DNA from: Nymphaea colorata
Taxonomy: Eukaryota; Streptophyta; Magnoliopsida; Nymphaeales; Nymphaeaceae
NCBI RefSeq assembly: GCF_008831285.2
Contig: NC_045151.1
Coordinates: 367,544-431,543 of the forward strand
Direction: 5' to 3'
DNA: 64,000 nt
Each line of letters begins with the position of its first letter. Position 1 is the first letter of the stretch. Under the pieces are notes generated by a model, which saw nothing but the letters and a program-made list of their open reading frames with translations, did no database searches and was not told the origin of the DNA. The translations under genes and the position numbers were made by a program. Shown piece by piece: positions 28,001-34,000 of this stretch.

Positions 28001-31000
28001 GAAAATCAATGATTTGTAAGCACTTCATGTGATACGGGGATGGGAAAGCCTATTTAGTTTAGAATGAGGGAATACATGGTATCAGATTCAGAGGTAACAA
28101 TGCATAAAAAGATGGCTGTAAGAAGTCAACCTGGACAGGTTACTGTTCATGGATTATTGCGTGAAATATGAGCAGTGAATGCTAAGCTGTAGTACACAAA
28201 TACTGATAAAGTTAAGAGAACTAATCTTTGATTAACCTCGAAAGAATCCCTAACTCCTCTTTATATAGACTAGAGGAGAGGGAAAAGTTACAAGAAAGTC
28301 ATTAAAAAGAAACATTATTACACAAGTGCCCTCTCAAGCCTAATACTGAATATAAACACGTCTTAACAAATACTATGATGTCTTTGTTTTCCTCTCAAAT
28401 AGAGGTGACACTGGTCATATATAAGATGTGTTATAACTTACATATAATGCAGTGGGAAACGTAAAATGTGTTTGAATAGCATGACAAATGCAAGAATGCT
28501 GAAATATTTCCACCCACATACCTTGCTTTCCTGATTTACCGTTCACCTGCAGTCTGCACATGTAGTGTGCAAATTTACCATCTAGTCTTTATTGTGTAAC
28601 ATTGAAATTCTAATGCAAATAAAAGATTCTGCAAAGCCTACTTTACATACGTTTTGAAAATGGTTTGTGACTTAACTTCACGTTTGTATATGTAGAAAGA
28701 TGATACTGTGCAAATTCTATCTGTTCCTGGGCTTTCAAAATTTAATTTCTTTAACCCTTTTTGCATGATTTTGGTGTTACGATGGTCACTGGTGCAAAGA
28801 CTTGTTTCCCTCTTATTTGTCTATAATACAAATCATTAATTTGAAATTCAAACAGTTTGGAGGTCTAAGGGCTACTCCATCAAGCAAGTTAATAATCAGC
28901 AATGTGAACTACTTAGGTTAGTGATTTTAATGCGACAATTTTAGAAGAGGATGAAACGTAGTTGAAGAATTCTTCTTGAGAATGTTTTCTACTGGTTGTT
29001 CTCGGAGACATTTATGACTTTTCTTTCCCCTTGGGAGGCCTAGCATAGATAGAGAAAGAAAAAAAGGAAAGAATTTCTCCTCAGATGTTTTCTGTTCAAG
29101 GTTCTGTTAGGGTGGTGAATTGACAAACACAGGAGATTTCTTCTAGGGCTTGTTAATGATGACATTGCACAAAATTCAGATTCCCATCCATGCTTCTGTG
29201 GTGAAGAGGCTTTCCTTTTTATGGTACCAAACAGTCTACTACATTAAGGCTGCATACCGTTGGTTTCCTTTCCAGAACTGAAGGCTTCTGAGATCCCTTT
29301 ATGACAAGTAAGGATCTCAGAATCTCAGATCACCATGGTTGGGCCATGGAGCCATGAACCTCACCAATTTGGAACCTATGATGCTCATTTTGAGTTATGG
29401 ATTCAATGTTTACAAAATCGTGGGTTTGGCATATGTCTTACGAGTTATGCCTTATTTGGCAATGACCAAACCAGTTCCATGAGTTACGAATTCATGCTAT
29501 CAAATGCTTCTTCACTGTCTTTAGCATGACGTCAGTGTTCCTTTATGCGTATTGTTTTCTGATGTAGCATGCCTTCATCATACGAGAGCCGATTTGAAAA
29601 TGATTTTCCACTTCTATTTAGATGCCTCCAAGATGCTCCGCCAGGCAAGGTAATTGAGTCAAGTTATCACTTTGAGCAATTTACTCTTATTGCAATCATG
29701 AGGTTTTCCATTTTACTAACTGTGGCATTTTTATTTCCCTGCACAAGTTACTATTTAATTGAGAAGTATTCTTACAGTGGGAAACAACATTATACTTGGG
29801 ATGTCAAAATTCTTAGAGGCACAAGAAAATCTGCTAGTATTTCGTGAAATGAAAATTAAATGCAAGCATGGGTATCATCAATGCGGCTCTGTTCTGCAAT
29901 TCATCAGCAGAATTTTATTGATTCTAGAATTCCCAGGAAACTTATTCTTGACTCATGCATGGTCGTACTTCCCAAGGATAACCATGGAAGGATATGTTAA
30001 AGATTGTACGATTTGGATCGGGTCAACCAGACCCGACCCATCTTCTCCACACGCCCAATCATAATGGGTGGTGGCATACTTGTATTTTTTAACATTGTTT
30101 TGTGTATTTTATTGTATACCAAATCAGTATATAATGATATCAAGAGGCAGACGTTAGTGCTCGCTTTCTTCTCTCTCTCTCTCTCTCTCTCTCTTGTACG
30201 TGCAACCCGTTCCTCTTTTTGCCTGAGATTGACTTTAGACAAAGCTGTCATTAAAATCTGCTGCACATCAGGAGAAATGTTCGATGCTGCAAACGTGTTC
30301 AATACAGTTGACCCTGCTGCCTTATTGTCACACCTGACCTGGTTTCCCTTGTTTTGAGGATTATGCCAACATTCTGACTTCACATCTCCTTTCTTATTGC
30401 AATAGAAACAAGTAGGTATTCTTCGTGGTACATTTGTCTGTGCATTTGTATTAGGTGTAGGAAGAATACTTTTCCCCATCCCTACCTTTGAGTTCCAAAC
30501 TCTTGGACAACTACCATGCAAATTATGGGCTCCAGTGACCAACACATTGTGACTGCCAGAATGCACTAATTCTTGTCGCTGCACATGAGTCGCTTCATGT
30601 TGAATCAATTTCGCTTTCAGATCTTCAAAAGAGGCAAGAACATGCAATGCTTCTAAAGCAGTGCAAAAAACATCAAATTCAGACCCCAATCCACTCAAAG
30701 CCTGTTGTACCTTGTCCTTGTCGCTGGCTGGGTGTCAGATGATTGCAAGTTGATCGCTGACATTTTTTATTTCATGTATGTACTCCCAAGACTGAACGTG
30801 TTCCGCGCTTGATATCTTGAAATTGCCTATTGAATTGTAGAAATCTGGTTTCTGATATTTGAGAATATGTGGTAGCGAGAACATTCCACAACTCAAGTGC
30901 TTAAAAATCATCATCAACACCCACTAGAACTTCCTCTGATAGTGTAGAGGTGATATAGGCAACAAGAGATTGATCATGTGCCATCTACGTCTCATATTCA

Positions 31001-34000
31001 GGATTGACTTCTGCAACGGTTTCTTGAACTTGCACTGCAGCATTCTTCACCTCTCGCATGACCCACTCAGGTGGCGCAGGTGTAGTGCCATTGAGATGTC
31101 CATAGAGACGATGACTCTTGATGAACGGAACTATTTGACGTTTCCATGTTGGTATGGTTTAGCTTTTGTGAGATGAGTTGAGAGAGGAAATTGGACGACA
31201 ATATGTTGGAATTCCGGTTGTGATCCATACTTGTAGCAATCAGAAAGTTGGAGATTAGGGCAGAAAGTTGGAGATTAAGACCCACGACAGAGATTAGGGC
31301 AGAAATTTGGGAATTAGGGCAGAAAGTTGAGGATGAAATTTGGGGATTAGGGTAGAAAGTTGGGGATTAGGGCACACGGCAGAGATTAGGGCAGACGCGA
31401 GGGATTAGGACAGAAATTTGGGGATTAAGACAGGAAACAAAAGATTAGGGTAGAAATCATAGATTCTTACCAAACATTCTCAATGGCAAAACCTTGCTCT
31501 GATACCATGTAAGATTTTGATATCTAATGTCAAACCACCGGATGAAGTTAGGTGCAAGAGGAGAAGAAGAGGAGCGGGCTTCACGTACAAGAGAGAGAGA
31601 GAGAGAGAGAAGAAAGAGAGCAGCAACCCTAACGTCTACCTCTTGATATCATTATATATTGATTTGGTATACAATAAAATACACAAAACAATGTTAAAAA
31701 ATACAAGTATGCCACCGCCCATTATGATTGGGCATGTGGAGAAGATGGGTCGGGTCTGGTTGACCCGATCCAAATCGTACAACCTTTAACAGGATATACA
31801 TTATACATTAGTAACTCCATAAAATGTTTTGATCAGGAAAATAGGTTTGAGGCAGGTCTAATATTGTTGTTTATATTGTGTCTCTCCATCATAAGATCTT
31901 CTATCAAATCTATTATCTTCTCATTGTATTTAATCTTGCAGAGGGGAGAGCAAGAGATTTAAAATAGCAGTTTTTGCATTTTCCTGGTTATGTGGTTATA
32001 CGTTGCCATGCTTGTCCCAGACTGTATTTTGTAGAAATAGGTAGTTATAATCTCTATCCATCTTGTAGGTTTCATGACAAAGAGTTAAGGGATGAAACAC
32101 ATGCTCTATGCACTTTAAAGGGCTGTTCCTTTCTTATTTGCATGTCAACATGATTTAGCCTTCCAAACTACCTTTTGCCAGTGGTTGACCTGTTCCAAAC
32201 TTACTAGTTTGCCTTGGTGCTGTGGCAGAAAACATTACTGCAATAGGTTTAACTGCTTCCTATTTAGATGCTGAGTAGAAGGATGATATGCCAAAGGATC
32301 AGATGCATGACGTTATCATTGCAAGTTTCAATTCCATTTTCATACTTGGTTGTTCTTTACTTTGTTACCCATATATTTGGACTTAAGTATTTCTTGGCTT
32401 TACTTCTTCACTGTGTTGGCATGCTGTGCTGAAGGCCAACTCTTCCAGATGCAAAATATGGTTCGTGTATATCAGGGTGCTAGTGAGATCCAAAAACAGA
32501 GAATATACAAATCTTGAAGTGCCTCAGTTGGTTCATGTAGCTTTGTTACCAATTTGATGCTAAATTTGTTGCATACTTCAAACAAGTGCTGCTGTTTATG
32601 CTATTAAAATGAACTATGATAATAGTACAGATAATTAAATTAATTTTTGAAAAAGAAAAAGAGACAATAGCTAATAATCAATTCCTCAGCCAAAGGAAAG
32701 GCTCAAGTATTTTTAGAGGTTAAAAATCCTAAGCAAATCACAGGTCCAAGTTAGATTCTGTATCCCACTAAATCCAAATTGAATTTCAAAATCTCAATAT
32801 ATACTGTAAACGTTTTGAACAAAATGCAATCTGGAAGACTGGAACTAAATGGATGTTGCACCCAGAACATGTTGCTTTTTATTTGGCAGATATTTGGCAA
32901 GTAATGCATGTATATATACAGTATAGACGTGTATGTTGTATATATTTTTTGTTTGCTTAGAAGATGTCTGTGATTCAGTCGTCACAGATGTTTGACTTAT
33001 GAATAGGTTAGCTGGAAAGATGTGACCCACTGGATGTGGCCACTTTTTACAGAAAATTGGGGATCTTGGAGGAGCCAGTGTTTGAGGCTTAGTGCTTGTC
33101 CTTTAACGGTCAGTGTCTCCATCAAATCAAGTTAAAGTTATTTTTATTGAAGGCAGCTGCTCTTTGTGTAATAATTTACATCCCATCTCATATTATATCT
33201 CGTTCAAGCATAAGCATGTCATGACTAAAGGGGTTCTGTAGCAAGTCATGGGGTGGTATAATGGAATGCAGGATCCTGTTACTGGCCTTCCAATGCTGCA
33301 TGATTGGCCGCAGTCTCCATTGCTTCTGTAAGGTTCCTTTGCCTTTGCCTTGAATGCATTTATTGGAGAATATAAAATGATTCGTTCTGTGTGTCGGTGA
33401 ATGAATTCTGTGTATTAAATAAATTAAGTGCCCTATAAAAGGGTTTTGTGAAGTTTTGAATGAGTCTTGATGGAGTTTTCAACTTCTGGAGAAGGCTTTA
33501 ATAATCAGTCCAATTTTTATTCCTTTTTTGTGTAAGATTGCTTACAAGTTACAATGTCTCTTTTCAATTCGATGTTGTTTCCAGCAGATTACATTAAATT
33601 ATTAAATGTTTCTATTATTCAGTAAAATGCTTAGTGAGATTATTAACTGCAACTTGCATATACTTGAAATGCTAGATATGAGTCCTCTTTCCCTTTGCAT
33701 TGATGTTCATGAAGATCAACCTAAGAATTATGATCTTCATTCCTCAAAACAGATAAAAGGAACAAGAGAAAACAAATATAACTTTTTTTCTGTATCCATT
33801 TGTCTGTGTAGTGTGCATGCCTCCATTCAAAGTTTAATTGGTCTCAGAAATGGTGTTTTACTTGGTCCAGGAGGCTTCTGTACCGTTGATCCAATCCCCA
33901 TCATCAAAAAGTTTTGACAGCAAAAGGTTGGGATGGTATATCTTTTGCAGGTGGAAATGCCAGTAATATTGTCTCAAATAAGCACTATTTATGAGAATGA

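Follow-up and report, generated by a model that had tools for sequence, protein, structure and literature searches.

A Copia derivative of Nymphaea colorata with an inverted second LTR and a U3 terminus at both outer ends

A stretch of 64,000 nucleotides from Nymphaea colorata (contig NC_045151.1, positions 367,544 to 431,543 of the forward strand), referred to here as the window, contains a Copia-like unit whose two terminal repeats face in opposite directions. Normal integration joins one U3 and one U5 end to the target, which raises the question of how a unit with a U3 end on each side came to lie within a clean target-site duplication. A first-pass annotation of the window had proposed that the unit was inserted as such and had put forward three origins, namely a strand switch during reverse transcription, self-integration followed by re-insertion, and the use of both ends by a DNA transposase. 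The anatomy of the unit was re-examined and these and other explanations were weighed.

Terminal repeats and target site

The unit extends from 29995 to 31791 and is bordered on each side by the pentamer GGATA. A complete LTR of 284 nt with TG..CA ends was located by BLAST and by inspection of the sequence at 31508-31791 on the minus strand, exactly where the first-pass annotation had placed it, with its U3 terminus facing outward at 31791. The opposite-orientation LTR start of about 228 bp that had been reported on the left side was also recovered: positions 29995-30220, read on the plus strand, correspond to LTR positions 1-228 with 92.6% identity over 229 columns of a gapped alignment (BLAST E value of 3.15e-93). 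The proposed start of this arm at 29995 was retained, but its right limit of 30222 was not, as homology stops at about 30220. Over 200 nt (29995-30194 and 31592-31791), the arms are 92% complementary without gaps, and they align locally with a score of 374, whereas none of 300 mononucleotide shuffles scored above 29, ruling out chance similarity. Both outer ends of the unit are U3 termini, as had been claimed, since LTR nucleotides 1-228 are repeated in reverse direction and the inverted copy starts precisely at the LTR terminus. The full LTR carries a TATA-like sequence, TATATAA, at position 134; hence, the inverted arm is expected to include U3 and the beginning of R but to lack the U5 end. 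The U3 and U5 termini of the LTR have TGT (TGT/ACA) in common as a terminal inverted repeat.

The two copies of GGATA, at 29990-29994 and 31792-31796, are identical and directly abut both ends of the unit, in agreement with the 5-bp target duplication described initially. The match between the flanks comprises five bases, the sixth being different. At the spacing of the unit, 5-bp matches occurred by chance at 119 of 61,900 window positions (0.19%), and pairs of 5-mers drawn at random matched in 0.14% of 200,000 draws. When the flanks beyond the LTR terminus were compared with one of them reverse-complemented, 17 of 60 ungapped positions agreed, a level that rules out an inverted duplication running into the flanking DNA.

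Differences between the two arms were unevenly distributed. In the first 160 nt, five sites differ, all by transitions and none by transversion (K2P distance of 0.032), as against 4 of the 27 sites in a block following the TC run (Fisher P = 0.026, for a block chosen after looking and with the indel-bearing stretch between the two parts left out). Because of this unevenness, the arms may come from different templates; the pattern could stem from the use of two templates, from two separate copies or from local instability of the region, and is, to some extent, evidence against a single-template origin. If both arms did come from one template, the insertion would be 1.2, 2.5 or 6.5 million years old at three plant substitution rates.

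No further copy of the LTR was detected by BLAST within the window, and a window scan with the first and last 18 LTR bases, allowing up to three mismatches, returned only the unit's own ends. The inverted arrangement likewise had no second copy within the window. A 21-base U3 pattern produced 0 matches in viral and prokaryotic contig collections, a result that has no bearing on rarity in plants.

Internal contents and the joint

Read along the minus strand, the unit follows the order of a normal element, with LTR, primer site, leader and gag, and then enters the inverted LTR at position ∼228. The primer site that had been noted beside the LTR was present as TGGTATCAGAGC at 31496-31507 on the minus strand, immediately after the LTR, and presumably fits the plant initiator tRNA-Met. 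The leader contains degenerate tandem repeats of about 19 to 39 nt (31241-31436, minus strand). These repeats have the core GATTAGGG, whose likeness to a telomere unit is superficial only.

A decayed copia-type gag occupies 30223-31158 on the minus strand. A Pfam match to Retrotran_gag_2 (PF14223) was obtained for one of the four pieces scanned, that at 30222-30734, with an E value of 2.7e-5 and a score of 24.1 bits against a curated cut-off of 27; the match spans only positions 120 to 170 of the 172 in the profile, i.e., the profile end, and the other three pieces had no match. The extension of gag to 31158 was made by position and by eye. Stop codons are present in the frame. Gag continues beyond a degenerate zinc knuckle, CFYCNKKGDVKSEC, which was recognized by eye and ends about 50 codons before the joint. 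The same piece gave a Pfam match to MAGUK_N_PEST with an E value of 0.064, below the cut-off for that family, and this match was taken as chance. No pol domain was matched by Pfam in the 4 element frames scanned, out of 36 element frames, and the fragment apparently ends within gag. Pattern searches with the gag piece gave no match in viral contigs and 36 matches in prokaryotic/viral genome contigs, none of which was a relative by tblastn in collections that could hardly show a plant one.

The internal joint between the inverted LTR arm and gag lies at 30218-30226; LTR homology stops at 30220, and the exact base is uncertain by a few bases. The joint carries a purine-rich sequence, AAAAAGAGG, on the minus strand. 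It corresponds to LTR position ∼228 of 284 and, hence, is situated inside the LTR and not at an LTR terminus.

Origin of the two U3 ends

The unit probably (at about 0.68) arose when a truncated, aberrantly made Copia cDNA carrying U3 at both of its ends was integrated in a single event. In favor of this reading are the U3 terminus found on either outer side and the presence of GGATA on both sides, for which the chance expectation is ∼0.2%, together with the normal order of parts on the gag side and the position of the joint inside the LTR, which is what a template switch predicts. Against it is the fact that a single copy was seen, and neither a parent element nor an empty site nor a relative turned up in the viral and prokaryotic collections, which could hardly contain one. 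Insertion of the unit as such, the core of the initial proposal, is probable and was the best-supported reading, given the exact terminus, the 5-bp duplication and flanks without inverted homology.

A strand switch during reverse transcription was the best fit among the three origins put forward. In such a switch, the growing plus strand would copy the LTR, the primer site and gag from the minus-strand template, leave this template within gag and continue on plus-strand strong-stop DNA from around LTR position 228. The strong-stop DNA would then be copied backwards, through R and U3, to its 5′ end, which is the exact U3 terminus; alternatively, end-to-end joining of two partial cDNAs would give an identical molecule. 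Integrase would subsequently insert both like ends at target positions separated by 5 bp. The outer end would be exact and U5 would be missing because copying would end at the 5′ end of the strong-stop DNA, and a switch of this type would produce a precise outer end and an arbitrary inner one, as observed. We infer the strand switch, with its inverted direction, the template of the switch and the acceptance of two U3 ends by the integrase. Palindromes and inverted circles are known from retroviruses.

A precedent for the use of two like ends is provided by the Rev-A retroviral integrase, for which concerted joining of two identical U5-type ends is reported (PMC3790719); in Table 2 of that paper, a 5-bp duplication is given for 26 colonies, alongside 13 half-site and 4 multiple half-site colonies. 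That precedent involves a retroviral integrase in vitro and U5 ends, whereas the present unit would involve a plant Copia integrase and U3 ends. No plant U3/U3 insertion was found in titles or abstract openings among the matches listed, in a search whose scope was literature outside subscription journals and which carries no claim that such insertions are unpublished.

The structure might also have arisen after insertion, although we consider this unlikely. A normal Copia element would have been inserted, and a template switch during replication or break repair would then have replaced its 3′ half with an inverted copy of the 5′ LTR before returning to the original flank via the TGT/ACA common to both LTR ends. 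This explanation retains some plausibility because of that common sequence: with TGT at both the U3 and the U5 termini, the return could hit the exact end and the duplication would be kept. Two switches are needed, however, the second of them no more than about 3 bp from the LTR terminus, where integration of an aberrant cDNA needs one, and no inverted flank sequence was carried along.

Fusion of two insertions of opposite orientation by a deletion between them is less probable still. Two different copies might show divergence of the kind seen between the arms (5 of 160 sites in U3, then 4 of 27 beyond the TC run), but the GGATA match would then be a matter of chance, at the frequencies of 0.19% for the unit's spacing and 0.14% for random pairs given above.

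Self-integration is a known fate of LTR-element cDNA, the usual products being circles. As an origin of this unit, with the product then inserted elsewhere, it was disfavored as improbable because the internal joint would then be expected at an LTR terminus, whereas it lies at LTR position ∼228 of 284, and a subsequent deletion there would be required. Mobilization of a foldback-type element by a DNA transposase acting on the inverted U3 arms would account for the long terminal inverted repeats and the target duplication but is equally improbable, given that the ends and the duplication are typical of Copia integrase, that no second copy was present within the window and that no transposase domain was detected in any of 12 scanned frames (4 of the element's 36 and 8 elsewhere in the window).

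Relation to known elements and other features of the window

The unit resembles plant Ty1/Copia LTR retrotransposons in its TG..CA LTR, adjoining primer site, copia-type Retrotran_gag_2 match (below the curated cut-off) and 5-bp duplication. It differs from them in that two direct LTRs are not present, the second LTR being partial and inverted, in having U3 at both outer ends, and in that only leader and gag were recognized, with no pol domain in the four frames scanned. The unit is a defective Copia derivative, neither a canonical member nor a new kind of element. It is a real and well-formed oddity, a variant of a known retrotransposon process, of which one old defective copy was seen.

As a retroelement with inverted terminal repeats, the unit is also similar to DIRS-type elements. 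Those elements rely on a tyrosine recombinase and are not known to generate a target duplication; the unit, in contrast, has the GGATA duplication, and no tyrosine recombinase was found in the four frames scanned of this truncated fragment. A further parallel is found in the Angela-like, Squiq and Opie complex insertions of Sabot and Schulman 2007 (PMC1950507), which combine an odd LTR arrangement with one clean 5-bp duplication and are read as single integrations of mis-made cDNA, template switching in reverse transcription being proposed for them. Unlike the present unit, these complexes have two core sequences separated by a third, internal LTR, an arrangement attributed to a switch between two RNAs. 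As the second LTR of the unit is inverted, a switch to opposite-sense DNA or end joining would be needed here.

If inserted as such, the unit is a natural record that a Copia integrase can carry out concerted joining of two identical ends, and it preserves a trace of errors by strand switching in plus-strand synthesis in plants. Its inverted arms may yield hairpin transcripts. A tentative extension, which we regard as doubtful, is that plant Copia integrase takes two-U3 cDNAs in vivo and that inverted switching gives rise recurrently to terminally inverted, hairpin-forming Copia derivatives, which LTR finders would miss because direct repeats are sought.

Elsewhere in the window, an open frame at 54298-55212 on the minus strand contains two Stress-antifung stretches (E value of 2.4e-38). 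Two further minus-strand segments match different parts of Exo_endo_phos2, that at 59285-59740 with an E value of 7.6e-5, below the curated cut-off, and that at 61150-62034 with an E value of 3.2e-8, above it; these are possibly exons of one inositol-phosphatase-like gene. A tRNA-Gly with the anticodon GCC is located at 10323-10393 on the plus strand.
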